A stretch of DNA of 55,179 nucleotides, taken from the IMG/VR virus record IMGVR_UViG_3300046734_000050, positions 1-55,179 of that record; one strand, written 5' to 3'. Source of the stretch: a virus. Numbering within the stretch: position 1 is the first letter of the stretch; every line of letters begins with the position of its first letter. The notes under the pieces were generated by a model. That model did not search any database. It was not told the DNA's origin and was given only the letters and a program-made list of their open reading frames with translations. The position numbers and the translations under genes are program-made. Shown here in pieces: positions 2,493 through 55,179 of this stretch.

Positions 2493-2897
2493 ATGACAGT
2501 AAGAAGTTTAGGTAAGTGGAAGTTACCACAACCTACAGACATAAAGGATGAAGAAGGTAAAGAGTGGTCTAAGATACCACGTATATCACGAATAATACCT
2601 TTTGGATATGAAAAAGATAAAGAAGACCCTGACGTACTTAATCCAATACCCTTTGAACTTGAAGCTATTGAAATGGCTAGAAAGTATGTAAGACAGTATT
2701 CCTATAGGCAAGTTGCTAATTGGGTTACTCAAAAAACAGGTAGAGAAATATCTCACGTAGGATTAAGAAAAAGGTTAATGCATGAGCAACAACGTAAGAA
2801 CCAAGCTAGAACTCTCAGAAAATGGTCTGAGTACGCCCAGAAAGCAATCGAAAAGGCGAAAGCCATTGAAGAAGAAAGACTCGGTTCAAAAACCTAG
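2493..2897 (+). CDS. Terminase-associated HTH-like protein
   Basis: A 134-residue protein of unknown function. Residues about 60-95 (KYVRQYSYRQVANWVTQK, then ISHVGLRKRL) read as a helix-turn-helix of the resolvase/recombinase type. The rest is a charged helix. It lies between terS and terL and overlaps terL by 116 bases in another frame. From memory the same gene sits there in related marine phages. A DNA-binding role in packaging is inferred. Confidence 0.7.
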   Translation: MTVRSLGKWKLPQPTDIKDEEGKEWSKIPRISRIIPFGYEKDKEDPDVLNPIPFELEAIEMARKYVRQYSYRQVANWVTQKTGREISHVGLRKRLMHEQQRKNQARTLRKWSEYAQKAIEKAKAIEEERLGSKT

Positions 2898-4326
2898 TAT
2901 AGTTGAAGTAGAAAGATTAGAAGAAGAATCTCTTAATGTAATCTTTAAACCAAATGCAGGACCACAGACAGAGTTTCTTGCGGCAAATGAAAGAGAAGTA
3001 TTATATGGAGGTAGTGCAGGTGGTGGTAAATCATATGCTATGCTTGCAGACCCTTTAAGATATATGGGTCATCCATCGTTTAGTGGTTTATTATTAAGAC
3101 ATACAACAGAAGAACTTAGAGAATTAGTATGGAAGTCACAAGAATTATATCCTAAGATTTGGAAGGGTATAAAATGGTCAGAAAGAAAGATGCAATGGGT
3201 AGCACCATCAGGTGCTAGATTGTGGATGTCATACCTTGACAGAGATGATGACGTATTAAGATATCAAGGATTGGCATTTAGTTGGATAGGGTTTGACGAG
3301 TTAACGCAGTGGGCAACTCCATTTTCATGGAATTACATGCGTTCACGTTTAAGAACAGCATCATCAGATTTGCCAATCTATATGAGGGCAACCACAAACC
3401 CGGGAGGTCCGGGTCATGGTTGGGTCAAAAAAATGTTTATTGACCCCGCACCATATGGAAAGACATTTGATGCAACAGATATTGAGACCGGGGAAATACT
3501 TAAGTATCCAGCAGGACATAGCAAAGCTGGACAATCGTTATTTAAAAGGAAATTTATCCCTGCAAGATTACTTGACAATCCGTATTTATCTAGAGAAGGT
3601 GATTACGAAGCAATGTTGCTATCACTCCCAGAGCAACAGCGTAGGCAATTACTTGAAGGCGATTGGGATATTAAAGAAGGTGCCGCTTTTACGGAGTTCA
3701 ATCGTGATATTCACGTTGTTGAGCCTTTTCACATCCCTAGTAATTGGGTCAAATTTAGGGCTTGTGATTATGGGTATGGTTCTTATAGTGGGGTGTTATG
3801 GTTTGCTGTCTCACCATCTGAACAACTTATTGTTTATAGAGAACTCTATGTTAGCAAAGTCCTTGCCACAGATTTGGCAGATATGATAAATGAATTGGAA
3901 GCAGAAGATGGAAATATTAAGTACGGTGTTCTTGACAGTAGCCTTTGGCACAAACGTGGTGATACTGGTCCTTCTCTTGCGGAACAAATGATACAGAGAG
4001 GGTGTCGTTGGAGACCTTCTGATAGAAGTAAAGGTAGTCGTGTATCAGGTAAGAATGAGATACATAGACGTTTGCAAGTAGACGAATATACAGAAGAACC
4101 TAGAATAGTGTTTTTTAATACGTGTACTAATACGGTTTCGCAATTACCTTCTATACCTTTGGATAAAAAAAATCCCGAAGACGTAGATACTAGAGCCGAA
4201 GACCACTTGTATGATGCATTAAGATATGGTATAATGTCACGACCAAGATTTAGTATATTTGATTACGACCCACATGGCAGACCTTCTAGTAGTATGCCTG
4301 TAGCAGATTCAACGTTTGGATATTAA
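2782..4326 (+). CDS. terL: Terminase large subunit
   Basis: A 514-residue packaging motor. The Walker A site is GGSAGGGKS (76-84) and the Walker B site is IGFDEL with Asp172-Glu173. The C-terminal nuclease has the expected acidic residues at Asp329 (ACDYG), Asp385 (VLDSS) and Asp474/Asp478 (EDHLYDAL). It hydrolyses ATP to pump DNA through the portal and cuts concatemers. The ATG at 2782 is the only upstream ATG before the ATPase core, and this start makes an unusually long 116-base overlap with the previous gene. A later TTG near 2866 is possible. Confidence 0.93.
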   Translation: MSNNVRTKLELSENGLSTPRKQSKRRKPLKKKDSVQKPSIVEVERLEEESLNVIFKPNAGPQTEFLAANEREVLYGGSAGGGKSYAMLADPLRYMGHPSFSGLLLRHTTEELRELVWKSQELYPKIWKGIKWSERKMQWVAPSGARLWMSYLDRDDDVLRYQGLAFSWIGFDELTQWATPFSWNYMRSRLRTASSDLPIYMRATTNPGGPGHGWVKKMFIDPAPYGKTFDATDIETGEILKYPAGHSKAGQSLFKRKFIPARLLDNPYLSREGDYEAMLLSLPEQQRRQLLEGDWDIKEGAAFTEFNRDIHVVEPFHIPSNWVKFRACDYGYGSYSGVLWFAVSPSEQLIVYRELYVSKVLATDLADMINELEAEDGNIKYGVLDSSLWHKRGDTGPSLAEQMIQRGCRWRPSDRSKGSRVSGKNEIHRRLQVDEYTEEPRIVFFNTCTNTVSQLPSIPLDKKNPEDVDTRAEDHLYDALRYGIMSRPRFSIFDYDPHGRPSSSMPVADSTFGY

Positions 4327-4327
4327 T

Positions 4328-6457
4328 ATGGCTGAAGACGAAATAAATTTAGAAGATGATGCGATTGCATTAGAGGACTCTAAAGATTCTGATGTAACTG
4401 ATGTAGAAGTAAAAGGTATTGCTAGTCATGTTATGTCACAGTTTAAAAAATCAGAAGACTACAGATATGATGATGAAACAAGATGGGTTCGTGCCTATAG
4501 AAATTATAGAGGTATATATGGACCTGATGTTCAGTTTACGGAAGCCGAAAAGTCTAGAGTATTTATTAAAATAACTAAAACAAAAACATTAGCCGCTTAT
4601 GGACAGATTGCTGATGTATTATTTGCGGGAAATAAATTTCCTATAAGCATAGAGCCAACAGAGTTACCAGAAGGAATTGCTAAAGATGTTAGTTTCGACC
4701 CTAAAGAACCTCAAGAATTACGTAATCAAAATGACAGCGGAGATGTGGTTTCTCCTTACGGTTTTATGGGAGATGGCAAAGAGCTTCCTAAAGGAGCTAC
4801 AGCTAAAAGCTTGCAAGATATGCTTGGTCCTTTGGGGGAAAAGCTTGAAGACGTTGAAAATCTTAAAGAAGGCAGTGGACAAACTCCTACAGCGATAACA
4901 TATAGTCCTGCAATGATTGCAGCTAAGTCTATGGAAAAACAAATCATGGACCAACTGCAAGAATCTCATGCCAACAAACATCTTAGAAGTACAGCTTTTG
5001 AAATGGCGTTGTTTGGTACAGGGGTAATGAAAGGACCTTTTGCTGTTGACAAAGAATACCCAAACTGGGATGAAGAAGGGGAGTATTCTCCTGTATTTAA
5101 AACAATTCCTCAAGTCAGCCATGTTTCCGTTTGGAACTTTTATCCTGACCCTGATAGTACTAATATTGAACAAGCACAATACATAATAGAACGACACAAA
5201 ATGTCACGCTCTGAGCTACGTGCTTTAAAACGAAGACCTTACTTTAGAGATAACGTTATAGAAGAGGTAATATCAGAAGGAGAAAACTATACAAAAAAAT
5301 ATTGGGAAGATGACTTAATAGATTATAATCAAGATAGCTATGTAGAACGTTTTGAAGTTCTTGAATACTGGGGTATGTTAGATACCGAAATGCTTGAAGA
5401 CCAAGGGGTTGATATTCCCAAAGAATTAAAAGACTTTGAAGAGCTACAAGTTAATGTGTGGGTTTCTGGGGGTAGATTACTTAGAGTTGTACTTAACCCA
5501 TTTAAACCTGCTAAGATACCATACATGGCTGCACCTTATGAATTAAATCCATATTCTTTTTTTGGAATTGGATTAGCAGAAAATATGGATGACACACAAA
5601 CATTGATGAATGGTTTTATGAGAATGGCTGTTGATAATGCGGTGTTATCAGGTAATTTACTTATAGAGGTGGATGAAACAAACTTAGTTCCGGGACAAGA
5701 CTTATCTGTATATCCGGGTAAAGTATTTAGAAGGCAAGGTGGTGCACCGGGTCAAGCTATCTTCGGTACGAAGTTTCCAAATGTATCAAATGAAAACTTA
5801 CAATTGTTTGATAAAGCTAGACAACTAGCAGATGAGAGTACAGGATTACCATCATTCTCTCATGGACAAACAGGAGTATCCGGTGTAGGAAGAACTGCAT
5901 CAGGCATATCTATGTTAATGAACGCAGCAAGTGGCAGTATTAAAACTGTTATTAAAAATGTAGATGATTATTTACTTAAGCCTTTAGGTGAAGGATTGTT
6001 TAGATTTAATATGCAATTTAATTTTAACCCAGAAATAAGAGGTGATTTAGAAGTTCATGCTAGAGGAACGGAAAGCCTAATGGCAAACGAAGTCCGTAGC
6101 CAAAGACTAATGCAATTTTTACAAACTGCATCTAATCCTGCCCTTGCTCCGTTTGCTAAGTTTAATTATATAATTAGAGAAATAGCAAAAGCTATGGATT
6201 TAGACCCATCAAAGGTTACTAACAATATGGATGAAGCTGTTTTACAAGCGGAGTTACTTAAACAGTTTCAAGGACCTCCACCACCTCAAGGTCAAGCTCC
6301 AGCAGGTGCAAATCCAATGGACTCCACAGGAGCAGGGGGAGGAACAATAGGAACAGGTCAAGTGCCGCAACCGAATGAACAAGGATTTAGTGGAAATGGA
6401 CAAGCAAATACTGGGCAACCTCAAACCCCTAGTCAGCCACCAGCACCAACTCAATAA
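4328..6457 (+). CDS. Portal protein
   Basis: A 709-residue protein beginning one base after terL. The start at ATG 4328 is preferred over an upstream TTG at 4316. It has a very acidic N-terminus, a long mixed alpha/beta body and a Pro/Gln/Gly-rich tail after about residue 640. Position after terL and size match the large portal proteins of P22-like and marine podoviruses. It should form the dodecameric ring at the capsid vertex through which DNA moves. Blocks such as WVRAYRNYRGIYG and SHGQTGVSGVGRTASGISML fit the family as I remember it. Confidence 0.85.
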   Translation: MAEDEINLEDDAIALEDSKDSDVTDVEVKGIASHVMSQFKKSEDYRYDDETRWVRAYRNYRGIYGPDVQFTEAEKSRVFIKITKTKTLAAYGQIADVLFAGNKFPISIEPTELPEGIAKDVSFDPKEPQELRNQNDSGDVVSPYGFMGDGKELPKGATAKSLQDMLGPLGEKLEDVENLKEGSGQTPTAITYSPAMIAAKSMEKQIMDQLQESHANKHLRSTAFEMALFGTGVMKGPFAVDKEYPNWDEEGEYSPVFKTIPQVSHVSVWNFYPDPDSTNIEQAQYIIERHKMSRSELRALKRRPYFRDNVIEEVISEGENYTKKYWEDDLIDYNQDSYVERFEVLEYWGMLDTEMLEDQGVDIPKELKDFEELQVNVWVSGGRLLRVVLNPFKPAKIPYMAAPYELNPYSFFGIGLAENMDDTQTLMNGFMRMAVDNAVLSGNLLIEVDETNLVPGQDLSVYPGKVFRRQGGAPGQAIFGTKFPNVSNENLQLFDKARQLADESTGLPSFSHGQTGVSGVGRTASGISMLMNAASGSIKTVIKNVDDYLLKPLGEGLFRFNMQFNFNPEIRGDLEVHARGTESLMANEVRSQRLMQFLQTASNPALAPFAKFNYIIREIAKAMDLDPSKVTNNMDEAVLQAELLKQFQGPPPPQGQAPAGANPMDSTGAGGGTIGTGQVPQPNEQGFSGNGQANTGQPQTPSQPPAPTQ

Positions 6458-13878: not shown

Positions 13879-15567
13879 ATGGGAGCTACATACACTAGAC
13901 AATCCTCGTACACAGATGGAGATATAATCACTGCGGCTCATACCAATGATGAGTTCAATCAGTTATTAGCTGCCTTTGCTGCAAGTACAGGACATACCCA
14001 TGATGGTACGACTGCTGAAGGTGGTCCTATCACTAAGATGCTTGGCACATCTCTTACACTAGGAGATGGCACAGCAGGTACAGATATTACAGTTACATTT
14101 GATGGTGAGTCAAATGATGGTGTCCTTAAATGGATGGAAGATGAGGATTATTTTGAGTTCAGTGATGACATACTTGTTGCTTCTACAGAGAAGTTACAAT
14201 TCAGAGACACAGCTTTATACATCAATTCAAGTGCCGATGGACAACTTGACATTGTTGCCGACACAGAAGTCCAAATAGCCGCACCAACAATTGACATAAA
14301 TGGTGATGCAGACGTATCAGGTACACTAACATATGGTAGCTTGTCTGATGGCTCTATAACTATTACAGCGTTTGTAGATGAAGATAACATGGCATCTGAC
14401 AGTGCTACTCTTGTACCTACACAGCAGTCTGTAAAGGCATATGTAGATGCACAGGTAACTGCTCAAGACCTAGACTTCCAAGCAGATAGTGGTGGTGCAT
14501 TAAACATAGACTTAGATAGTGAGATACTTACTCTCACAGGTGGTACAGGTATTGATACAAGTGGTAGTGGTAACGCTGTTACCTTTGCAATAGATTCTAC
14601 TGTAGCTACACTTACAGGCTCACAAACACTTACAAATAAAACAATAGATGTAGACAACAATACTGTTTCTAACATTGAAGTTGACAATCTTAAATCAGGT
14701 GTACTAGACACAGACTTATCTTCTGTATCAGGTAGCGATGACACACTAGCTTCTGCAAAAGCTATTAAGACTTATGTAGACTCACAAGTAACTGCACAGG
14801 ACTTAGACTTTCAGGGTGACTCAGGTGGAGCATTAAGCATTGACTTAGACAGCGAAACTTTAGACATAGCAGGTGGTACAGGTATTGACACTTCAGGTTC
14901 AGGTAATACACTTACTGTAGCTATTGACAGTACAGTTGCTACACTTACAGGAACACAAACACTTACAAACAAAACACTTACAGCACCTACTATAAGTAGT
15001 ATTACTAATTCAGGTACACTTACATTACCTACATCTTCTGACACACTTGTAGGTAAAGCTACTACTGACACATTAACTAACAAAACTATTGACGTTGATA
15101 ATAACACAGTATCTAACATTGAGGTAGATAACTTCAAAGGTACAGCCATTGTAACTGAATCAGAAGGTATTGGGTCTAGTGACAATGATACATCCTTACC
15201 TACATCAGCAGCGGTTAAGGATTACGTAGATACACAAATTACTGCTGAAGATTTAGATATTACAACAGATAGTGGTACAATTGCAATTGACCTTGACAGT
15301 GAGACACTAACTGTTGCAGGAACATCTAATGAGATTGAGACAAGTGCAACAGGTAATATAGTAACAATTGGATTACCAAACTCTGTTACTATAAGTGGTA
15401 CTTCAACAGCTACTACATTTAGTGGTGATTTAAATGGTACAATTAATAGTGCTACTACAGCTACTACACAGACAGCAGGAACAAATAATACATTAGTTGC
15501 TACCACAGCCTTTGCTGTCACGGAAGCAAATAACTCAGCAGTAGCAATGGCAATTGCTCTAGGATAA
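13879..15567 (+). CDS. Tail fibre protein with internal repeats
   Basis: A 562-residue Thr/Ser/Asp/Gly-rich protein, almost free of Cys, Trp and Pro. The N-terminus (TYTRQSSYTDGDIITAAHTNDEFN, split as TYTRQSSYTDGD and IITAAHTNDEFN) and a GHTHDGT metal-turn motif are typical of phage fibre attachment regions. Two long repeats begin at VTAQDLDFQ (about residues 193 and 304), a third diverged unit begins near 453 (ITAEDLDI), and QTLTNKT is also repeated. It starts immediately after the nozzle gene. It probably forms a trimeric shaft, with no chaperone domain visible at the C-terminus. Confidence 0.8.
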   Translation: MGATYTRQSSYTDGDIITAAHTNDEFNQLLAAFAASTGHTHDGTTAEGGPITKMLGTSLTLGDGTAGTDITVTFDGESNDGVLKWMEDEDYFEFSDDILVASTEKLQFRDTALYINSSADGQLDIVADTEVQIAAPTIDINGDADVSGTLTYGSLSDGSITITAFVDEDNMASDSATLVPTQQSVKAYVDAQVTAQDLDFQADSGGALNIDLDSEILTLTGGTGIDTSGSGNAVTFAIDSTVATLTGSQTLTNKTIDVDNNTVSNIEVDNLKSGVLDTDLSSVSGSDDTLASAKAIKTYVDSQVTAQDLDFQGDSGGALSIDLDSETLDIAGGTGIDTSGSGNTLTVAIDSTVATLTGTQTLTNKTLTAPTISSITNSGTLTLPTSSDTLVGKATTDTLTNKTIDVDNNTVSNIEVDNFKGTAIVTESEGIGSSDNDTSLPTSAAVKDYVDTQITAEDLDITTDSGTIAIDLDSETLTVAGTSNEIETSATGNIVTIGLPNSVTISGTSTATTFSGDLNGTINSATTATTQTAGTNNTLVATTAFAVTEANNSAVAMAIALG

Positions 15568-36792: not shown

Positions 36793-36821
36793 GTTATATC
36801 AGCTAACATCTTTCGTGTCAA
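36793..36821 (-). promoter_or_regulatory. Promoter overlapping the end of polA
   Basis: On the minus strand TTGACA (36821-36816), 17 bases, then TATAAC (36798-36793). The -35 box lies inside the last codons of the polymerase gene. It would drive the putative ssDNA-binding protein gene and those after it, giving higher dosage than polA. An AAGGAG site precedes the downstream ATG. Confidence 0.6.
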
Positions 36822-38808
36822 GCCAATTATCACCTATTTTTGCTTCAAGTAATAATGGTACATTGAACTCGATGCTAAACTGTTTCTCAATAATAGATTG
36901 GAGACTACTATTGAGTAGTTTGATAAGATATAATACTTGTGTTATCTCATCAGGGTGTATGTCAACAACTACAGAATCGTGTACTGAATTAACAATACAT
37001 GACTTATAATTAGCTAACAGGTTCTCCATGTGTATTAATACAATGGGAACTATGTCGGCAGTAGCAAAGCTTTGTACAGGATAGTTCTTTATCTGTGTAA
37101 AGAAGCTTACTGTGCCATTCATTCTTCTTTGAACATCAGGAAAAGAAAACTCTCTGCCTGATGGTGTGGATATCTTGCCTGTCTCTAGAGCTTCTTTAGC
37201 CAATCGGGAGTGCCAAGCTTTGATTCCTGTGTACTTCTTTGTAAAGTGTTCATAGTACTCCGCTTCAGCTTTACTTCTTCCAAAGCCTGTTGCTCCGTAG
37301 AGAGGTGCAAATGTGTGTGCTTTCGCATCCTGCCTAGAAGTCGGTTGACCCGCATCTGTAATAACTTTAGACGTATATGAGTGAACATCAAATCCAGTAG
37401 AGACTTCATTCATTGCCACCTTATCTTGTGATAGATATGCCGCAGCTCGAAACTCTAGCTGTGCAAAGTCAGCTTCAAGTATCTTGCCACCTTTCCAACG
37501 TGATACGAATACCTTCTTTACAGGAAACGTACCACCTCTAGGCATATTCTGCATATTAGGGTCTGCACCGCTGAATCTACCTGTGGCAGTTCTGTGTTGT
37601 AATAATCTCACATGAAGCTTACCATCAGTTTTAACGTGTGCCTTTATGCCCTCTACAAAAGAACTTAAGTATGAGTCTAGAGCCGACAAACGTTTAACAT
37701 CTGTCAAGAAGTTGACAGCGTCTGTCATGTTGTTACGTTTAGCCATGCTCTGTAGCATATCCAAGTTAGTCTTTGAAACACCAAAACCATTGGCAGATAC
37801 CCACTTAGAGTTTGGTGCTTTAAATTTTAGCCCTGCTACTAATCCAAGAGATTGAAGACTATAACCATAACCACCACAGTCAATGTGCTTAGTGGTATTT
37901 GCGTAAGGAGTTCCATTCTTTCTTACCTTTCTTATCTGCCCTGTGCCATTACAACCTCTGCATGATACAGCCTTTGTTTTAAATACTATGCTTGAGTTCT
38001 TAGATACAGTATCGTTGAAATGACTCTTGTCCATATAAGGAGTAAAGGCATTAGCCCACATAGTTTTATCGTGTGGTTTTCTGCTGTATATAACCCAAGA
38101 CATCTGCTCTGGACTATTTAGATTAATAGGAGTGTCACCCATAAGAGTTCGTATTTGAACCTGTAATCTCTTTTCTATCTCAAGCTTCTCTGTTTCAAAC
38201 TGAAGCCTAACTTCCTCTAGCTTCTCTTCATCTACAGCAAAGCCTGTATTATATATATGAGCTAGAGTGACACATACCCTATTAGTTAATACAACACACT
38301 CCATCAATGATGAATCTGTAGTCATCAATCTTTTTGATAGTTTCTCAGCTAACTGTTGTGTTGCATGTAAGTCTGCTGATAAGTACGAAGACAATTCATC
38401 AGGCGGTATCTCATCAACACCTATACCCTGTTTAAAATACTCCTTCAAAGTATCCTGCTTCTTTGTATCTAACTCATACCTTTCAGCACAAGCTTCTAGT
38501 GATAAGGGTTCTTTCTGTCCACGTTGCAAGACATACTCGCCTAGCATTGTGTCAAACACAGGACCATCATACTTGAAGCCACACTCCCATAGCCACATTA
38601 AATCGTATGCTATGTTGTGTCCTATTAATATAGTAGCTTCATCCAAGTGTGCTTGCACACCATCAAAATTATCTCTATATAAATATTCTTCTCCTTTATC
38701 TGTCAAGCATCCAACCATGACAAGTTTATTGTCAGGCTCAAATGGGTCTAGGTACATCTTGCCATCACGTTTAGTGACAGTATTTTCTACATCTAATGTA
38801 AGTTTCAT
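36799..38808 (-). CDS. polA: Family A DNA polymerase with DnaJ-like zinc finger insert
   Basis: A 669-residue replicative polymerase. The 3'-5' exonuclease has LDVEN (Asp6, Glu8), GHNIAYD (Asp69) and YLSAD (Asp146). Residues 283-316 form a DnaJ-like finger: CRGCNGTG (Cys283, Cys286) and HIDCGGYGY (His308, Cys311), so one of the usual cysteines is His. The polymerase has motif A (Asp447), motif B (Arg492, Lys496, Phe500, Tyr504-Gly505) and motif C (His610-Asp611). Phe500 matches E. coli Phe762. ATG 38808 was chosen because AGGAG lies 5 bases upstream. The finger between the two domains is the hallmark described for HMO-2011-type phages. Confidence 0.93.
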   Translation of the reverse strand: MKLTLDVENTVTKRDGKMYLDPFEPDNKLVMVGCLTDKGEEYLYRDNFDGVQAHLDEATILIGHNIAYDLMWLWECGFKYDGPVFDTMLGEYVLQRGQKEPLSLEACAERYELDTKKQDTLKEYFKQGIGVDEIPPDELSSYLSADLHATQQLAEKLSKRLMTTDSSLMECVVLTNRVCVTLAHIYNTGFAVDEEKLEEVRLQFETEKLEIEKRLQVQIRTLMGDTPINLNSPEQMSWVIYSRKPHDKTMWANAFTPYMDKSHFNDTVSKNSSIVFKTKAVSCRGCNGTGQIRKVRKNGTPYANTTKHIDCGGYGYSLQSLGLVAGLKFKAPNSKWVSANGFGVSKTNLDMLQSMAKRNNMTDAVNFLTDVKRLSALDSYLSSFVEGIKAHVKTDGKLHVRLLQHRTATGRFSGADPNMQNMPRGGTFPVKKVFVSRWKGGKILEADFAQLEFRAAAYLSQDKVAMNEVSTGFDVHSYTSKVITDAGQPTSRQDAKAHTFAPLYGATGFGRSKAEAEYYEHFTKKYTGIKAWHSRLAKEALETGKISTPSGREFSFPDVQRRMNGTVSFFTQIKNYPVQSFATADIVPIVLIHMENLLANYKSCIVNSVHDSVVVDIHPDEITQVLYLIKLLNSSLQSIIEKQFSIEFNVPLLLEAKIGDNWLDTKDVS

Positions 38809-38818
38809 ATCTACTCCT

Positions 38819-40042
38819 CTATGCTGTGAACCTTGCGATTCTATAATCAAGGTTACAATTAATCATACCATGCCATCCTGTTACTTTATTCTTTACAACA
38901 TTAATATGCCTTAAAGTTGACTGTTCGTCAACCCCTTCTACTTGAGCAGGTTGTCCTATCAGTATCATCAAGTCTGCTTCAGCGGCCTTACCTGTACGTG
39001 AGCCTTCCATCATAGCCTGATTAAGAACCTGTCTGCCTTCCGCTTCCGCAGACAACTGTGACATATAGAATACAGCACAGCCATATGTCTTTGCTATTTG
39101 TCTAGCATATATAGCATTAGCTTTTAACATCTCATCAGGTCTAGAGTAACTACCTGACCTAGCAAACTTATCTCCCATATCTAGAACTACTATGTCAGGT
39201 CTCTCTGTCTTACACATTGTCTCTACCCATGACATATCCTCACCACTAACATCTTTAATCTTTACGTTCTTGGTTACATCTTGGTAGATTGATTTAGCTT
39301 CTTGGATGTTAGCTTGAATCTTCTCCTTTGGAAAACCTGTAGATGCCTGTATATATCGGAAGGCAACTCTGTCATAAGACTCTTCATTGCAGAGGACTAC
39401 ACATTTAGCACCCTGTCTAGCCATACCATTAGGACCTACCAACATAGATGCATGAAAGGAAGTCTTGCCTGTGTTAGGTCGAGCACCTATCTCCACAAGG
39501 TAACCTGCATTTACACCTTCTACCTTACGTGCCATCTCAGGTATATTGAATGTCCACTTCATCTGTACAGATTGTTTAGCCATGATAGTATCAAAAGATA
39601 TATCATCCCATTCAATCTTTACTTCAGGTAAAAAGTTATCATTATACTTGTCAAGTAAATCACGTAATGGTCTAAGACTTTTCTCTGCACCATTCACATA
39701 ATCAAATCCTAGATTTGCTATGTCTTCACCAATGACCTGTTGAAATAACTTAGACAGCACATCCTGTGCCACATCAGTACCCATTGGTTGCTCACGTTTT
39801 ACTGTGTTAAACAGTGCACTATAACCTTGCTTCTGTGCTGTAGTCATCGATGGATTGTTTGCCATAAACAATGCTTCCACTTCATCAGGTGTTACATCTC
39901 TTTTATATTTATTCATAGCATAATCAATAGTATGCTTTAGCTTTCTTGCATCTTTACTGAACAGTCTATCAGGACACTTAGAGCCACGATGGTCTGTGTA
40001 AAAATCTTTGTTCATCAAGCTACGTAGTAGGGATAGTTCCAT
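38819..40042 (-). CDS. Replicative DNA helicase (DnaB/T7 gp4-like)
   Basis: A 407-residue RecA-fold helicase: Walker A GARPNTGKT (186-194), Walker B IVVLDMG (Asp288), and a C-terminal block with SQLSAEAEGRQ and EGSRTGKAAEADLMI. The N-terminal about 150 residues are helical and may bind the primase or polymerase. It unwinds DNA ahead of the polymerase encoded next. It overlaps the primase gene by 23 bases, so helicase and primase are separate polypeptides here, unlike T7 gp4. Confidence 0.87.
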   Translation of the reverse strand: MELSLLRSLMNKDFYTDHRGSKCPDRLFSKDARKLKHTIDYAMNKYKRDVTPDEVEALFMANNPSMTTAQKQGYSALFNTVKREQPMGTDVAQDVLSKLFQQVIGEDIANLGFDYVNGAEKSLRPLRDLLDKYNDNFLPEVKIEWDDISFDTIMAKQSVQMKWTFNIPEMARKVEGVNAGYLVEIGARPNTGKTSFHASMLVGPNGMARQGAKCVVLCNEESYDRVAFRYIQASTGFPKEKIQANIQEAKSIYQDVTKNVKIKDVSGEDMSWVETMCKTERPDIVVLDMGDKFARSGSYSRPDEMLKANAIYARQIAKTYGCAVFYMSQLSAEAEGRQVLNQAMMEGSRTGKAAEADLMILIGQPAQVEGVDEQSTLRHINVVKNKVTGWHGMINCNLDYRIARFTA

Positions 40043-46583: not shown

Positions 46584-46765
46584 TAGTTGTACTCCTTCAC
46601 ATATAAAAATTCTATTCTCTCGTTTGGGTGAACTGCTCTAGCAGTATCCATAGCATGTTCAATTGCATACTCCCATGATGCATCAGGTAGGGCATCAGAG
46701 TGGACATTAACTTGCCCACTCTCTGCACCTATCTTGATACCTACTTGCCAATATGGTATTGTCAT
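46583..46765 (-). CDS. Small early protein
   Basis: A 60-residue protein, beta-alpha-beta by pattern (WQVGIKIGAESGQVNV, WEYAIEHAMDTARAV, RIEFLYVKEY). It is joined to neighbours by single-base overlaps. No family recognised. Confidence 0.6.
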   Translation of the reverse strand: MTIPYWQVGIKIGAESGQVNVHSDALPDASWEYAIEHAMDTARAVHPNERIEFLYVKEYN

Positions 46766-47142
46766 TAGGCTACCTTTCTCTTTCTGCCTAGCTTAGACTT
46801 GGCTAGGTCTTTGAGGTTACTTACTTTGAAAGAACCATAGCTTTTACTATTGAACTCTTTCCCTTTTCTGATTGCTCTGCAAACTGAGGTTAAGTCTTGT
46901 ATTAAGACCATGAAAGCAGTAGTCGCAGTATTCTGTATGTAGAATCCTTCGTCTGCTTTAGCACCTCTAGACATCTCTAAAGACAGCTTGTACAGTTTCA
47001 TCTTAGATAGTGGTAAACCTACCACCTCTTCATATATAGGCTGAAGAGTATCAAAAAGGTTTTGACCTCTCTCGCTTAAACATTGACCTGTACGACCTGT
47101 AGATTGCTTCCAATAGGAAACGTTGAATGTCTTCTTACTCAT
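46765..47142 (-). CDS. Early protein with basic C-terminus
   Basis: A 125-residue protein, mainly helical, with a Lys/Arg-rich end (LAKSKLGRKRKVA). An AAAGGAGAAC site lies upstream, and a GTCCAACATTGGAC dyad sits 26 bases before the start. The basic tail suggests nucleic-acid binding, otherwise unknown. Confidence 0.6.
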   Translation of the reverse strand: MSKKTFNVSYWKQSTGRTGQCLSERGQNLFDTLQPIYEEVVGLPLSKMKLYKLSLEMSRGAKADEGFYIQNTATTAFMVLIQDLTSVCRAIRKGKEFNSKSYGSFKVSNLKDLAKSKLGRKRKVA

Positions 47143-47168
47143 AGTGTTCTCCTTTCATTGAGAGTTAG

Positions 47169-47184
47169 TGTCCAACATTGGACA
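47169..47184. promoter_or_regulatory. Dyad GTCCAACATTGGAC, copy 1
   Basis: Seven-base arms (TGTCCAA / TTGGACA) around CA, in the leader of the gene at 46765-47142. It is one of six copies within 3.3 kb, all with the same central CA on the plus strand. Confidence 0.75.
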
Positions 47185-47195
47185 GTTACTTTGCA

Positions 47196-47336
47196 TTATG
47201 CAAAATTCCGTTCTTGTATGTTACGTTTAACTTTACGTAAGGCTTGTCTGTCTCGCTTCCAATCATCACGTTTATCTTTCTTGACTGTCTTCTTAACAGA
47301 AATCTTTTCAAATGTTTCGTATTTAATCTTTCGCAA
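47196..47336 (-). CDS. 46-residue basic protein, TTG start
   Basis: TTG 47336 to TAA 47196 on the minus strand, with TGGAGA six bases upstream. The product (RKIKYETFEKISVKKTVKKD, then DDWKRDRQALRKVKRN) is about 40 percent Lys/Arg, a likely nucleic-acid binder. A leader hairpin of the same family as four other early genes lies 26 bases upstream of the start, which argues that this frame is a gene. A longer frame at 47186-47386 in another phase has no such support. Confidence 0.55.
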   Translation of the reverse strand: MRKIKYETFEKISVKKTVKKDKRDDWKRDRQALRKVKRNIQERNFA

Positions 47337-47361
47337 TTTAATCTCCAATAGTTATAATAAT

Positions 47362-47403
47362 ATATATATAATACTTTCATATACATTTAAGTATTATATA
47401 TAT
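47362..47403 (-). other. Leader hairpin 1
   Basis: A 15-bp AT-rich stem (47362-47376 with 47389-47403) and a 12-base loop; the loop-closing pairs are CTT/AAG. It lies 10 bases after the stop of the upstream gene and 26 bases before the TTG start at 47336. It belongs to a family of five. Confidence 0.75.
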
Positions 47404-47411
47404 TATAATTG

Positions 47412-48146
47412 TTATATGTACTTAGCACCTGTTCCATGTCCTACAATAGCAATGCTCTTTGCATTGATAACTGAACCACTACAAAGCTTACAGCTTTCAC
47501 AGGTAGTACGTCTACCTGCTTCTTCTGATGCAGGACATAGAACTTCTTCACCTTTGACTACAGAGTCAACAGATTTGATTACTCTGAAGGTTCTGATACC
47601 ACTAGCCCAAGCACTTTGTGCTTCTTCTAGAGTGTCAGCACTCTTCATACAAAGGTCATATCTTTGATTGACCTTCTGATGTGTATAGCCCGTTCTACCT
47701 TTTGAGTAAGATAGAAGGCTATCCCAAATATAAGATGGTACTGCTGATGGGTCACCATAAGACCCAAGTCTTATGATGTTATCCTTGCCAAGTTCAGCTA
47801 AATCATTATGTCCTTGAACATAATCATAATTACCCTTCTTGTATGTTTTCCAAACATTCAAAGGTGCTTGGTAGATTGCAACATAGCAAGCCCTATTTTC
47901 AGCTAACTTCCTATCGGAAGAAGCATCAACAGCAGTACCTCGAAGCTTACAGTCTCCACAAATAGAATAGTCCAAGCCAAGCTTATTAGCTTCACGTGGG
48001 TCTATGTCCTTGCAAAGTATCCATGTCTGTATCATGCTACCTGTCTTGCTATTGCTAGAATCCTTATCAAATCCCGTTGCAATAACAACAATATCTTGAC
48101 CATCAATCATTGATTGACCTTCATATAAAATGTAACCATTAGCCAT
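47412..48146 (-). CDS. Cys-rich early protein conserved in marine phages
   Basis: A 244-residue protein with paired cysteines (SICGDCKLRG near residue 63; ESCKLCSG near 220, preceded by RRTTC) that probably bind zinc. A central block RLGSYGDPSAVPSYIW and YTHQKVNQRYDL match a conserved phage protein I cannot name. A leader hairpin and a CGGAGAA ribosome site precede the ATG. It may handle nucleic acid. Unknown. Confidence 0.65.
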   Translation of the reverse strand: MANGYILYEGQSMIDGQDIVVIATGFDKDSSNSKTGSMIQTWILCKDIDPREANKLGLDYSICGDCKLRGTAVDASSDRKLAENRACYVAIYQAPLNVWKTYKKGNYDYVQGHNDLAELGKDNIIRLGSYGDPSAVPSYIWDSLLSYSKGRTGYTHQKVNQRYDLCMKSADTLEEAQSAWASGIRTFRVIKSVDSVVKGEEVLCPASEEAGRRTTCESCKLCSGSVINAKSIAIVGHGTGAKYI

Positions 48147-48176
48147 TGTATTCTCCGTGATGTTTAAGTTATATAT

Positions 48177-48218
48177 ATAATAAATATACTTTCATATACA
48201 TTCAAGTATATTTATTAT
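48177..48218 (-). other. Leader hairpin 2
   Basis: A 15-bp stem (48177-48191 with 48204-48218) and a 12-base loop (48192-48203) whose sequence is nearly identical to the loop of hairpin 1. It starts 30 bases upstream of the ATG at 48146. Confidence 0.8.
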
Positions 48219-48225
48219 TATATTA

Positions 48226-48459
48226 CTAAAGTTTTTTATCTAGTGCAGTCCATAGTCCATCAAGTTCATTGATGTCGTAGTATCCATAGCCTAGCTTTTT
48301 ACCTTCGGTATCTTCTATGTAAAAACCTCTATCATCAGACTGCCACTTCTCCCATATATTTCCAATATATCCAAATGAATAATCTTTTGGAAGATTGTTT
48401 TCAATCTTATCATAGTACTTACGGAACTTCTCTCTATCAATATCTTTAAAATGTATCAT
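48226..48459 (-). CDS. Small early protein
   Basis: A 77-residue acidic-aromatic protein (YYDKIENNLPKDYSFGYIG, then GLWTALDKKL). It starts one base after the stop of the upstream gene. The hairpin 2 element begins eight bases after its own stop. No family recognised. Confidence 0.55.
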   Translation of the reverse strand: MIHFKDIDREKFRKYYDKIENNLPKDYSFGYIGNIWEKWQSDDRGFYIEDTEGKKLGYGYYDINELDGLWTALDKKL

Positions 48460-48460
48460 T

Positions 48461-48712
48461 TTAATACTCCCTAACTCTATCGTAGATATAAAGATACTCT
48501 TTAATATCTAGTAATATTTCATCATACTCTTTCTTTGCCAAGTCTTTTAACCCTTCCTCATAGGAAGAATAACTAGAAACGATTTGATTAAGAGATATGT
48601 ATCGTAAGACACAACTCCCTTCCTTAAGGTTTTCAACCTTTTCTAGCACGTACCTGCTACCCTTTGCTATGATGTCAGAAGGCAAATCTTGATATCCATA
48701 ATTAAATCTCAT
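48461..48712 (-). CDS. Small early protein
   Basis: An 83-residue helical protein, rich in Tyr, Leu and acidic residues (EILLDIKEYLYIYDRVREY at the end). A GGAGATTAAT site precedes the ATG, and a dyad copy lies about 32 bases upstream. No family recognised. Confidence 0.55.
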   Translation of the reverse strand: MRFNYGYQDLPSDIIAKGSRYVLEKVENLKEGSCVLRYISLNQIVSSYSSYEEGLKDLAKKEYDEILLDIKEYLYIYDRVREY

Positions 48713-48743
48713 ATTAATCTCCGATTAAAAGTTAAAATTAAAG

Positions 48744-48759
48744 TGTCCAACATTGGACA
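48744..48759. promoter_or_regulatory. Dyad GTCCAACATTGGAC, copy 2
   Basis: Perfect seven-base arms in the leader of the gene at 48461-48712, directly after the stop of the gene at 48761-49030. Confidence 0.75.
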
Positions 48760-48760
48760 G

Positions 48761-49030
48761 TTAGTACTCATCAGAGTACACTTCTCCGAAGTCTTCCCAC
48801 TCCTGCTCCCATGAAGGCTGACCATCATCTTCGTCTTCTTCTCCGAAGAACTCAGCCCACTCCGAAGGAGTTACACCTGTCTTAATGAACTCTCGTTCAT
48901 CAGCAGATAAGTTTGGCATGGCATCTTGAATAAGAGTACCATTCTCCCAAGAGCTTAATTGCTCTTGAGTTACATCAATGTCCATTGTATGAACATTGTT
49001 AGTAAAAGCTGACATTCTTGTAATTTTCAT
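48761..49030 (-). CDS. Conserved acidic early protein
   Basis: An 89-residue protein with DIDVTQEQLSSWENG, LIQDAMPNLSADEREFIKTG (split LIQDAMPNLSADER, EFIKTGVTPSEW) and a very acidic C-terminus. The block is a conserved small protein in marine and other phages as I recall. The strong negative charge at the end could mimic DNA. A hairpin and a dyad precede the gene. Confidence 0.6.
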   Translation of the reverse strand: MKITRMSAFTNNVHTMDIDVTQEQLSSWENGTLIQDAMPNLSADEREFIKTGVTPSEWAEFFGEEDEDDGQPSWEQEWEDFGEVYSDEY

Positions 49031-49053
49031 AATAAACTCCGTTTAAGTTAAAG

Positions 49054-49069
49054 TGTCCAACATTGGACT
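49054..49069. promoter_or_regulatory. Dyad GTCCAACATTGGAC, copy 3
   Basis: Six-base arms intact, with the outermost pair lost (T/T). It lies between leader hairpin 3 and the ATG at 49030. Confidence 0.75.
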
Positions 49070-49077
49070 GTTTAAGT

Positions 49078-49125
49078 TATATATATAATAAATAATATTT
49101 CATTAAAATATTATATTATTTATTA
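49078..49125 (-). other. Leader hairpin 3 (imperfect)
   Basis: An AT-rich stem of about 9 bp next to the loop and more pairs outside a small bulge. The loop is shorter and lacks the conserved sequence of the others. Its flanks (AGTAATATAATAATAAAT and TATATATAACTT on the transcript) match those of hairpin 2, so it belongs to the same family. It lies about 48 bases upstream of ATG 49030. Confidence 0.6.
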
Positions 49126-49133
49126 TTATATTA

Positions 49134-49349
49134 CTAATTGTTTCGGAAATGGTGGATTATAAATAATCCTGTCATTAACAAAGTTAATCCCATTGCTCCG
49201 ATTAAACCAACAAACATTATTCCCAAAGGGAATCCTTGGTTGATTGCTTCGCTCATGTAATAACCTTCCTCTTCTGATAAGGTTATCCAAGCCATTAAAG
49301 TTACAGGTATTCCTAAAAGGAATATTAATACTCCATCTAATTTACTCAT
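49134..49349 (-). CDS. Two-span small membrane protein
   Basis: A 71-residue protein with membrane segments at about residues 5-23 and 42-66 and an HHFRNN tail. It is an early gene starting one base after the upstream stop, with a GGAG site. It could be an early host-envelope modifier or superinfection-exclusion protein, inferred only from topology. Confidence 0.6.
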   Translation of the reverse strand: MSKLDGVLIFLLGIPVTLMAWITLSEEEGYYMSEAINQGFPLGIMFVGLIGAMGLTLLMTGLFIIHHFRNN

Positions 49350-49350
49350 T

Positions 49351-49617
49351 TTAAACTCCGTTTAACATTTCATCTAACATTGCAATAGCTTCGCTATTGT
49401 CAGAGTGTCCAACATTGGACAGTTTACCTTTGGTAAGAGCTTCTTTGAACATCTTAGTTTCAAGTTCATTCTTTCTTGAAACATAAACTTCCAATGGCTC
49501 ATCATGGTCTTTGACCATCTGAATCCAATTACTTCGTAATGGTTTATGTTTATAATTAGAACCAAAGCTTCGCTTTACAGTAGTTTTACACCAAAGTTTT
49601 CTTTTAAGTCTCGCCAT
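49351..49617 (-). CDS. Basic early protein containing a dyad element
   Basis: An 88-residue protein with a very basic N-terminus (ARLKRKLWCKTTVKRSF) suggesting nucleic-acid binding. Near the C-terminus the SNVGHS stretch is encoded by a GTCCAACATTGGAC dyad (49406-49421). AGGAGATAAAC precedes the ATG, and hairpin 4 lies 14 bases upstream. Confidence 0.6.
   Translation of the reverse strand: MARLKRKLWCKTTVKRSFGSNYKHKPLRSNWIQMVKDHDEPLEVYVSRKNELETKMFKEALTKGKLSNVGHSDNSEAIAMLDEMLNGV
49406..49421. promoter_or_regulatory. Dyad GTCCAACATTGGAC, copy 4 (inside a gene)
   Basis: Perfect seven-base arms within the coding sequence of the 88-residue basic protein, read as SNVGHS. Confidence 0.7.
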
Positions 49618-49630
49618 GTTTATCTCCTAA

Positions 49631-49685
49631 GATATATATAATAATTAATACTTTCGTAAGTATTCAAGTATTAATTATTTATATC
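49631..49685 (-). other. Leader hairpin 4
   Basis: A 14-bp stem (49640-49653 with 49666-49679) with a 12-base loop, extended by an outer 6-bp GATATA/TATATC stem across a three-base bulge. It ends 14 bases before the ATG at 49617. Confidence 0.8.
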
Positions 49686-49724
49686 TCTAAATGTTAAAGT
49701 TATCATTCACAAAGAAGATAGCTG

Positions 49725-50327
49725 TTAAGCTACCTTCTTAAGGTTATCTTCTTCTAAAAGAGCTAATTGCTCTTTAAGGGCTTTGATGAAGTCACTCTTT
49801 GAGATACCATTGGTATCACAAGCTAGTATAGCTTCAAAAGCTACATCAGAAGCTGAAAGCTTCTTTTGAACCTTCGGTTCTTCTTTGACAGACTGTCCAA
49901 CATTGGACTCTTCAGAAGAAGTATCTTCTGTAGTTTGAGACTCTGTCTCATCTTGAACCTTTGGTTCATCTTTTGGCTTATTAGCCAAGCTGTAAGCTCT
50001 TTGCAGAGCAGTTAAAGAGGTAAACCTCTTCTTAGGGTTTTGGTTTAACCAAGTGACTATGTCACTATGATTGGAGAATAACCATAAAGCTTCGCTTTTT
50101 CTTCTTCTATCGATGGAATTAATTCCATACTTTAAGGCTAAAGCCTTACTAATAATCTTAACATTTTCAATGGTTAAGATTTCAGACTGTAGCTTTCCAA
50201 GCTCAAAGTCAAAACTCTCCTTGCTGAAAACCATCTTTGTAGTTTTCACTTTCAAAGCCTTTTGCTCTTTGTTGTAGATTTTAGTTAAGTTTGAACCGAT
50301 TGACTGAAGTGTTGAAATGTTAGTCAT
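49725..50327 (-). CDS. First leftward early gene, putative regulator
   Basis: A 200-residue protein, the first gene after the early promoter. The N-terminal half is basic and helical (VKTTKMVFSKESFDFELG, YGINSIDRRRKSEALW). The middle is acidic and low-complexity, with a repeated EPKVQ unit around a dyad-encoded SNVGQS. The C-terminus is helical (LSASDVAFEAILACDTNG). I do not recognise it. Its place suggests an early regulator or host-takeover protein. AGGAGAAAAC precedes the ATG. Confidence 0.6.
   Translation of the reverse strand: MTNISTLQSIGSNLTKIYNKEQKALKVKTTKMVFSKESFDFELGKLQSEILTIENVKIISKALALKYGINSIDRRRKSEALWLFSNHSDIVTWLNQNPKKRFTSLTALQRAYSLANKPKDEPKVQDETESQTTEDTSSEESNVGQSVKEEPKVQKKLSASDVAFEAILACDTNGISKSDFIKALKEQLALLEEDNLKKVA
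49894..49909. promoter_or_regulatory. Dyad GTCCAACATTGGAC, copy 5 (inside a gene)
   Basis: Six-base arms around CA, in the acidic middle of the first early gene, read as SNVGQS in the same codon phase as copy 4. Confidence 0.7.
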
Positions 50328-50342
50328 ATGTTTTCTCCTAAG

Positions 50343-50405
50343 TTATATTAATTAAATTTAAACACCTTTCGTAAGAACTCAAGGTGCTTTAAATTTAATA
50401 TATAA
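50343..50405 (-). other. Leader hairpin 5
   Basis: A stem of about 20 pairs closed by CACCTT/AAGGTG (left arm ending 50368, right arm starting 50381) with a one-base bulge and a 12-base loop. The pairs next to the loop differ from hairpin 4 on both strands yet still match. It forms the 5' end of the main early transcript and ends 16 bases before ATG 50327. Confidence 0.8.
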
Positions 50406-50427
50406 CTAAATGGTTTCGGTTTGTCAA
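50399..50427 (-). promoter_or_regulatory. Main leftward early promoter
   Basis: Minus-strand TTGACA (50427-50422), 17 bases, then TATATA (50404-50399). Transcription would start near 50392, so leader hairpin 5 begins at or very near the 5' end of the mRNA. A TGTCGA...TCGACA dyad lies 15 bases upstream of the -35 box. Confidence 0.65.
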
Positions 50428-50442
50428 GCCATCAATAGACTT

Positions 50443-50462
50443 TGTCGAAGTAAGTATCGACA
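50443..50462. promoter_or_regulatory. Dyad upstream of the early promoter
   Basis: TGTCGA, eight bases, TCGACA: a perfect six-base inverted repeat 16 bases upstream of the -35 box. Candidate operator or activator site. Confidence 0.4.
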
Positions 50463-50486
50463 TTGTTTTTTTAAGAAGACTTCAAC

Positions 50487-50502
50487 AGTCCAACATTGGA
50501 CA
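50487..50502. promoter_or_regulatory. Dyad GTCCAACATTGGAC, copy 6
   Basis: Six-base arms around CA, about 60 bases upstream of the early promoter -35 box. Rightmost copy of the family. Confidence 0.7.
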
Positions 50503-50737
50503 CTTAACTTACTACCACTAGGGTAGTAAAAAAGCCATACTCCTCCACTCCGTACTACCTCTTGTTGCAAAAATGTCACACTTCTCATCGAAGATGAATA
50601 GGAAACTGATAGTAAATGAGTTGTTTACTTAGAATAAGTACTTGATTTTACTACATTTTATATGCTTTAGCATATAGAGCTTGGGAAGAAGTCTTCAATT
50701 CTATCAGAAAAGACTCTTTGAGATGAGAACTCTAGCC

Positions 50738-50928: not shown

Positions 50929-50957
50929 TTGACAAGTATCGTGATTGATGGTATAAC
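50929..50957 (+). promoter_or_regulatory. Rightward promoter 2
   Basis: TTGACA (50929-50934), 17 bases, TATAAC (50952-50957). It would start the late transcript near 50964, about 140 bases before the first rightward gene; the 17-base direct repeats then lie in the leader. Confidence 0.6.
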
Positions 50958-54790: not shown

Positions 54791-54973
54791 ATGATTGAGT
54801 TTGTGCTTGTGTTTATGATGGGATTAAGAGTAGTAGACCAAACACAAACCTTCCAAGATATAGATAGATGTTTATACTTTGCAGAGAGACTGCACAACCA
54901 ACCTTCAATACCACAAAAGGAAGGAGCTAATTTAGAGATAACAGCATACTGTAAACCTATAAGGAAAAAATAA
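54791..54973 (+). CDS. Small protein with hydrophobic N-terminus and Cys pair
   Basis: A 60-residue protein opening FVLVFMMGLRVVDQTQTF, then DIDRCLYFAERL and AYCKP. The short hydrophobic start may be a membrane anchor or export signal, and two cysteines could pair outside the cytoplasm. AAGGAG lies upstream. It is the complete copy of the gene whose end is at 1-60. Similar in layout to 51309-51509. Unknown function. Confidence 0.6.
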   Translation: MIEFVLVFMMGLRVVDQTQTFQDIDRCLYFAERLHNQPSIPQKEGANLEITAYCKPIRKK

Positions 54974-55179
54974 AATGTTAGCAGAACTAGCCGCAGCTAA
55001 CGCTGCTTTCAGTGTCATAAAACAATTTGTGTCCAACGGTAAAGAACTGAGTGGCTGTGCAAAACATATAAGCGATTTTGTATTCTCTAAAGAAGCAATA
55101 GAGAAGAACCTAAAGAAAAAGAAAGCTAAAGGGGTAGGAGGTACAGACTTAGAAGAGTTCATGGCTCTTGAGCAGATAA
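54914..55179. repeat. Right copy of the terminal overlap
   Basis: Matches 1-266 with five substitutions (55013, 55055, 55079, 55103, 55133). All five fall at third codon positions of the gene starting at 54975 and change no amino acid. Confidence 0.9.
54975..55179 (+). CDS. 5' part of the coiled-coil membrane protein gene (partial)
   Basis: ATG 54975 opens 68 codons and runs off the end of the window. The protein is identical to residues 1-68 of the complete gene at 62-505. It is the same gene seen at the other end of the overlap. Confidence 0.85.
   Translation, partial: MLAELAAANAAFSVIKQFVSNGKELSGCAKHISDFVFSKEAIEKNLKKKKAKGVGGTDLEEFMALEQI

Follow-up and report, generated by a model that had tools for sequence, protein, structure and literature searches.

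Why should a phage place long inverted repeats, one after another, just ahead of its early genes? The question is raised by a stretch of 55,179 nucleotides, the whole of IMG/VR virus record IMGVR_UViG_3300046734_000050 (hereafter the window), which is an HMO-2011-type marine podovirus. Its early operon runs leftward from about 50.4 kb down, and a cluster of five long hairpins lies at the head of the operon. An earlier note, made from the sequence alone, had seen in them a selected RNA structure placed before early genes. We find that the stems vary in sequence while the folding is kept: this is a real control element, its exact job still unproven. It is apparently a new and undescribed family of RNA leaders. 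With a confidence just short of even, we read the hairpins as a processed or protected leader of the early mRNA that sets up translation of the next gene.

Five hairpins in the window

An exhaustive scan of the whole window for perfect stems of 10 bp or longer with loops of 3–20 nt returned only five, of which four are hairpins 1–4 (15, 15, 14 and 14 bp) and the fifth, of 10 bp at 15357, is unrelated to the family. Four stems of at least 12 bp were observed in the early region, compared with a mean of 0.01 in 200 dinucleotide shuffles. Hairpin 5, which carries one bulge, has the best RNA folding z of the five (-6.7, against -2.5 to -5.6 for hairpins 1–4). All five share the orientation of the gene they precede, and each was found where the earlier note had placed it, 13–47 nt from a start codon, which for hairpin 1 is a TTG (47348). 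The 12-nt loop with CTT/AAG closure that the note described is present in hairpins 1, 2, 4 and 5, while the loop of hairpin 3 is closed by ATAT and a GTCC palindrome comes after the stem. The note had the apical part of the hairpins right and missed the basal helix of hairpins 2–5, where the stem extends past a small internal loop or bulge to give 22–30 bp overall. The basal helix of hairpin 4 ends at an AGGAG, and the stem foot of hairpin 5 adjoins the AGGAG of gene 49725–50327 (Table 1).

Covariation and the basal helix

The suspected compensatory changes are borne out across the family. In a MAFFT alignment (A2) 88.6% of cells pair, compared with 62.4% after shuffling, and double changes occur at all 12 scored pairs. 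The covariation score of this alignment is 0.602, against 0.195 for shuffled controls and at most 0.25 for slid registers. A model-fitted alignment of 76 distinct rows, which is hence biased towards structure, gives 96.4% pairing and a covariation of 0.612 against 0.160 shuffled.

Because the candidates had been chosen for their stems, we tested their flanks, which were unselected. The 24-nt flanks of the apical stem give a mean of -7.9 kcal/mol, compared with -4.7 ± 0.28 when right flanks are exchanged (56 non-redundant cases), and complementarity in the basal helix is about 11 standard deviations above that of re-paired flanks. The flanks thus pair with each other, and the element is therefore larger than was first seen, with an apical stem of 12–19 bp that a small internal loop separates from a basal helix. 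The folded leader domain has a median of 28 bp, reaching 30–37 bp in first-gene copies.

These results leave a probability close to nil for AT-rich chance inverted repeats, terminators or coincidental promoter palindromes. AT-rich arms do yield TATAAT-like strings, and the number of promoter-like matches in the region (35) is what shuffling yields (32.0 ± 5.5). Shuffles almost never yield such hairpins, however, the double changes are conserved across phages, and the flank-pairing test adds to the refutation. Unlike intrinsic terminators, the hairpins have AT-rich arms and no G+C-rich stem; no T-run follows the five on the minus strand, as the note had claimed, nor any of 115 hairpins across the family, and the terminator reading was rejected.

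Among the pairs of all apical stems (alignment A5) 781 are Watson-Crick and only 4 are G-U; the 5 A-C pairs, set against these 4 as a test of the sense strand, favour neither strand. Such a scarcity of G-U is odd for drifting RNA helices.

Distribution among phages

Homologous hairpins occur in cultured relatives, in about 100 IMG/VR contigs and in a second phage group, which agrees with the proposal that related phages would carry them. Puniceispirillum phage HMO-2011 has two copies (4–42 and 1208–1238, loop GATACTTTAGTGA), Roseobacter phage CRP-345 has one (817–856, GAATATTTGTGA) and Roseobacter phage CRP-1 has one (991–1027), all detected by stem alone or by loop. CRP-345 and CRP-1 have an extra hairpin ahead of the first early gene, TATCTCTC-CCTTTAGGGTGA-GAGAGATA, at the end of the linear records. 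No hairpin was found in CRP-603, CRP-2, CRP-207, HTVC033P, CRP-235, CRP-738, CRP-3 or CRP-212. Among IMG/VR relatives of the early genes the family is present throughout. A sample of relatives based on DNA polymerase yielded mainly short contigs, which say little about co-occurrence.

The covariance-model search that the note had proposed was made with a model trained on 60 copies. It gave 142 matches in 100 loci, a number that includes most of the training copies by construction; 134 of the 142 are in sense to early genes and the other 8 are mirror images of sense hairpins. In the window three of the five copies have E<1e-3, hairpins 3 and 5 are weak, and no further site is above chance level. 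Strong matches in whole records are located in the early region. Of 112 viral contigs that contain the core CTTGANNCTTTAGTGAAAG, 109 give it a stem of 6 bp or more. In 84,980 cellular genomes the core occurs in 33 stretches, approximately the chance number as estimated from pattern length, and in none of the 33 does a stem reach 8 bp. The element is absent from hosts.

Several hairpin-bearing viral records contain neither the HMO-type polymerase nor the family of the first early protein, gp01. A second group comprises temperate podoviruses whose DNA replication module differs (loci L354–L362 in records G051, G052, G057 and G059, 36–44 kb), for which no close cultured relative was found. Its loci L356/L357 (38.6 kb) encode an integrase, a Gam-like protein, a replication initiator, a regulator with an N-terminal helix-turn-helix match in a position like that of a CI repressor, and a portal protein with only about 22% identity to phages such as Vibrio phage 1.211. 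The proteins shared between L356/L357 and HMO-type loci are lysis or accessory proteins only, and the loop of hairpin 2 is also found in the second group. Hairpins of L356/L357 lie on both genome strands, each directly before and in sense to its own gene.

Hairpins without gp01 also occur at loci L031–L033 and L290. In L290 (record G073, 2825–4838) the match to the HMO-type DNA polymerase is split into two overlapping parts, one of them interrupted by stop codons, a possible frameshift, intron or pseudogene.

The conserved loop

In a loop-blind scan giving 61 distinct sense hairpins with a score of at least 13, the loop ends in (T/C)GA in 42 and in GTAAA in 4. The 3' half of the loop is fixed as UUU(A)RUGA. 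Counts over 53 class-A loops, which were selected for the (T/C)GA end, show mostly G or A at position -4, U/A-rich positions -5 to -7 and mostly GA at the first two positions. A second loop class has the sequence CCATTTATGGGTAAA. The class-A loop would fold into a 2-bp mini-stem (AC/GU) that carries a GA bulge and is topped by a U-rich tip, for example UUUA; where the 5' side is also GA, a tandem G-A would replace the bulge. A kink-turn was rejected, the three-nucleotide bulge being missing, and a leader peptide starting in the NTGA loop end was dropped because loops ending in CGA or TAA have no start codon.

Placement, promoters and genome context

A Shine-Dalgarno-like motif and an open frame follow within 130 nt downstream of 100 of the 115 hairpins (quartiles 31/48/54), and few of the 115 fall inside longer frames. 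The downstream proteins belong to 34 families with no detectable mutual similarity, and the leader is therefore part of an expression system rather than of one gene.

A sigma-70 promoter ahead of the first early gene is plausible from the sequence in the window and in loci L024 and L056, where TTGACA-17/18-TATAAC lies at the equivalent site and its -10 adjoins the stem. The earlier note had hairpin 5 forming the 5' end of the main early mRNA; this is plausible given TTGACA-17-TATATA, with the qualification that the -10 lies inside the outer arm. The idea that every hairpin has its own promoter did not hold generally: a match of 10/12 or better was found for 13 of 89, compared with 3.3 expected, some TTGACA strings are codons ending the preceding gene, and internal hairpins are mostly without a promoter.

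The DNA polymerase of the window (36799–38850) has 67% identity to its HMO-2011 counterpart, the next matches being further HMO-2011-type phages, and PHROGs labels for other window proteins include helicase, integrase and ribonucleotide reductase as well as polymerase. Bases 1–40 repeat at 54914, and 1–266 and 54914–55179 form an imperfect overlap of the record ends, which makes a circular or terminally redundant genome probable. A near-consensus sigma-70 promoter, TTGACA-17-TATAAC, at 50929–50957 on the + strand faces rightward genes from 51101.

Table 1. Hairpins, palindromes and associated features of the early region (window coordinates)
Feature	Position	Strand	Context	Details
Leader hairpin 5	50343–50405	-	precedes first early gene 49725–50327	loop GAGTTCTTACGA; stem ..GCACCTT/AAGGTG..
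Leader hairpin 4	49631–49687	-	precedes gene 49351–49617	apical part 49640–49679; loop GAATACTTACGA; covariance-model E 3e-4
Leader hairpin 3	49078–49131	-	precedes gene 48761–49030	apical part 49085–49126; 14-nt loop AATATTTTAATGAA
Leader hairpin 2	48169–48228	-	precedes gene 47412–48146	apical part 48177–48218; loop GAATGTATATGA; covariance-model E 3e-4
Leader hairpin 1	47362–47403	-	precedes TTG-started ORF (open reading frame) 47196–47348	loop AAATGTATATGA; covariance-model E 4.5e-4
Candidate host sigma-70 early promoter	50399–50427	-		TTGACA 50422–50427, 17 nt, TATATA 50399–50404
gp01, family A3	49725–50327	-	first early gene	200 aa; all-helical prediction, no known fold
Palindrome 1	50488–50501		upstream of early promoter	GTCCAACATTGGAC
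Palindrome 2	49895–49908		within gene 49725–50327	GTCCAACATTGGAC
Palindrome 3	49407–49420		end of gene 49351–49617, 57 nt ahead of next start codon	GTCCAACATTGGAC
Palindrome 4	49055–49068		between hairpin 3 and ribosome-binding site of gene 48761–49030	GTCCAACATTGGAC
Palindrome 5	48745–48758		before gene 48461–48712	GTCCAACATTGGAC
Palindrome 6	47170–47183		before gene 46765–47142	GTCCAACATTGGAC

The first early protein and a second palindrome

The structure model of gp01 is confident and all-helical (predicted local distance difference test, pLDDT, 82). The protein has no PDB match and no Pfam family, and in BFVD only one match, to a viral protein without a name, is significant. Cultured phages, with the window counted, carry hairpin and gp01 together (4 genomes) or neither (8 genomes). 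On this co-occurrence gp01 was at first favoured as the phage protein suggested to bind the hairpins. The idea was later weakened because L031–L033/L290 and the second group have hairpins without gp01. A search for a phage protein common to the HMO-type and second groups found only lysis or accessory proteins. As hairpins occur without a shared candidate RNA-binding protein, a host factor is the simpler assumption.

What does track with gp01 is the palindrome GTCC-N6-GGAC, which is present in the window, in L007, L008 and L009 and in most gp01-bearing loci, and absent from L031–L033/L290 and the second group. There are 283 distinct copies, compared with 15 for three control palindromes of equal composition, and 144 copies lie at most 70 nt before a start codon (median 21). 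The centre is biased in orientation (AATGTT and GATGTC 134, AACATT and GACATC 35), and there are 16 G-U-compatible forms against 1 A-C form, a hint that the palindrome makes an RNA mini-hairpin and is not only a DNA operator. In a comparison of L025, L026, L007, L098 and L113, the palindrome is TTCCG-N5-CGGAA in L025/L026 and GTCCGACAGCGGAC or GTCCGCTGTCGGAC with HMO-2011-like gp01. The variant appears to go with the kind of first early protein, and gp01 may bind the palindrome. Inside gp01 genes of the window and its relatives an in-frame palindrome encodes S-N-V-G-(Q/P)-S in a disordered, variable linker (residues 122–154, pLDDT <50).

A possible mechanism and its alternatives

How might such an element work? 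Each copy would be a portable 5'-leader RNA, a helix of 22–37 bp in two or three segments that borders a ribosome-binding site on its upstream side, and the upper part of the helix would present a fixed motif of 2-bp mini-stem, U-rich tip and 3'-side GA bulge or tandem G-A. If the early transcript runs across the element, the helix could be recognised as it emerges and then processed or protected, the likeliest actor being a host factor such as RNase III together with a protein that binds the loop. The message of every early gene, or of every small group of them, would thereby begin at a fixed 5' end of its own and have an accessible ribosome-binding site, with a possible effect on translation or stability. 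In function the element would then correspond to the five sites at which RNase III acts on the T7 early message, and to the RNase III hairpin of the lambda N leader.

Several points weigh against a processed or protected leader. The close relatives CRP-603, CRP-2, CRP-207 and HTVC033P manage without the element. Since the candidate -10 runs into the outer arm of hairpin 5, transcription may not cover all of that arm. The rarity of G-U means that a reading in terms of RNA only is not fully settled, and arm-to-arm template switching on DNA could be the source of the complementarity. RNase III does not require a conserved apical loop; the conserved loop calls for a binding partner, and cutting alone is insufficient.

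The last point leads to an operator for translation that is bound by a protein and left uncut, its bulged stem-loop docking host proteins or differing phage proteins and switching all early genes jointly in the style of coat protein or RegA. A fixed loop 3' half, a GA bulge or tandem G-A and variable stems suit a protein that reads structure plus loop, and the site adjoins the ribosome-binding site. That ribosome-binding site lies outside the helix, however, so blocking by binding is not obvious, and no common phage-encoded candidate was found, the gp01 family being absent in two of the three hairpin-bearing groups. We regard such an operator as possible, if on the doubtful side.

The arms could also be kept perfect by template switching for a role at the DNA level, in which a single-stranded or extruded hairpin is recognised as a hairpin promoter, a folded recombination site or a cassette boundary. 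Such a role stays under consideration because G-U pairs are nearly absent and a putative -10 lies in the left arm of hairpin 5; the positions between 34 unrelated gene families resemble cassette boundaries, and these phages carry a tyrosine integrase. It is made unlikely by the orientation, which always matches the downstream gene even with opposed genes in one genome, by the constrained distance to the start codon and by a basal internal loop that is kept rather than mended. The R'/R'' core of integron attC sites (GTTRRRY), which lies at the base of the folded site and is read by IntI, was not seen by eye in the stems, though no dedicated search was made.

Modification of host RNA polymerase by a cis-acting antitermination element, as in HK022 put or lambda nut, is less likely again. 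It would account for a structured RNA with conserved loop and bulge that is confined to early operons and occurs in unrelated phages, as expected of a signal read by host polymerase alone, but it needs neither adjacency to ribosome-binding sites nor repeats every 600–900 nt. No conserved terminators were seen behind the hairpins, though no systematic search was made.

Comparison with known elements

The T7 sites R0.3–R1.3 have an internal-loop cut site and no conserved apical loop, unlike the present element, for which RNase III cleavage is proposed by analogy. In the T7 early operon five long RNase III hairpins split the message into mono- and dicistronic units (PMC4858673). The present hairpins are likewise intercistronic helices of about two turns in an early operon, and its transcription by host polymerase is suggested only by the sigma-70-like promoter. 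The lambda N leader combines nutL with an RNase III hairpin beside the N ribosome-binding site, in one copy, with boxA/boxB for N protein. It resembles the present element as an early phage leader with a helix adjoining an early-gene ribosome-binding site, and differs in that here many copies precede unrelated genes and no N-like protein was found. HK022 put RNA is also a structured RNA of early phage transcripts and uses host machinery only; it lies near the promoter, whereas the present hairpins are tied to ribosome-binding sites. Intercistronic UUCG hairpins are repeated in T4 mRNA too, but have short stems and a CUUCGG tetraloop in place of apical stems of 14–26 bp with a 10–15 nt loop.

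The nearest likeness in placement is to the ESAS and SAS elements of cluster K mycobacteriophages. In ESAS an inverted repeat of roughly 17 bp, with a conserved half-site consensus and a spacer of 4–13 nt, lies just upstream of some non-structural gene starts; SAS are 13-bp sequences (GGGATAGGAGCCC) at the ribosome-binding site or start codon (Pope et al. 2011, PMC3203893). As there, the present elements are start-associated, gene-oriented and limited to early or non-structural genes, and the order is alike, with a hairpin, often the 14-bp GTCC..GGAC palindrome, and then the ribosome-binding site. The authors found 'little support' for mRNA hairpins in ESAS, whose arm sequences are conserved, because left and right departures do not pair (PMC3203893). 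Here, in contrast, the arms vary yet stay paired and covary while the loop is conserved, and the second element is GTCC-N6-GGAC at a median of 21 nt ahead of the start, unlike SAS. The systems share no sequence, and their phages and hosts are unrelated.

The claim that no described element matches holds within the sources searched. Rfam 15 gave no gathering-score match in the window or in six loci and none at relaxed threshold in 47100–50600. In the HMO-2011-type group paper PMC9038755 the terms 'hairpin', 'promoter' and 'RNA polymerase' do not occur, nor is early expression mentioned, and within the open literature no paper joins HMO-2011 with hairpin or stem-loop.

Significance

Taken more broadly, the hairpins may form an undescribed, transferable family of RNA leaders in at least two unrelated marine phage groups, read by a host factor and giving exchanged early genes a plug-in module for their expression, which in the gp01-bearing group would be paired with an RNA hairpin GUCC-ANNU-GGAC that tracks the first early protein; we hold this wider view tentatively, somewhat below an even chance. 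Cultured members exist in HMO-2011, CRP-1 and CRP-345, and the element is therefore directly testable. The contrast with the non-covarying arms of ESAS bears on why phages set inverted repeats before early starts. HMO-2011-type phages rank among the most abundant marine viruses, and a covarying leader before many accessory early genes provides a marker of early genes and a means of predicting transcript units; it also points to recognition of an RNA in host-phage pairs that are uncultured or hard to grow.

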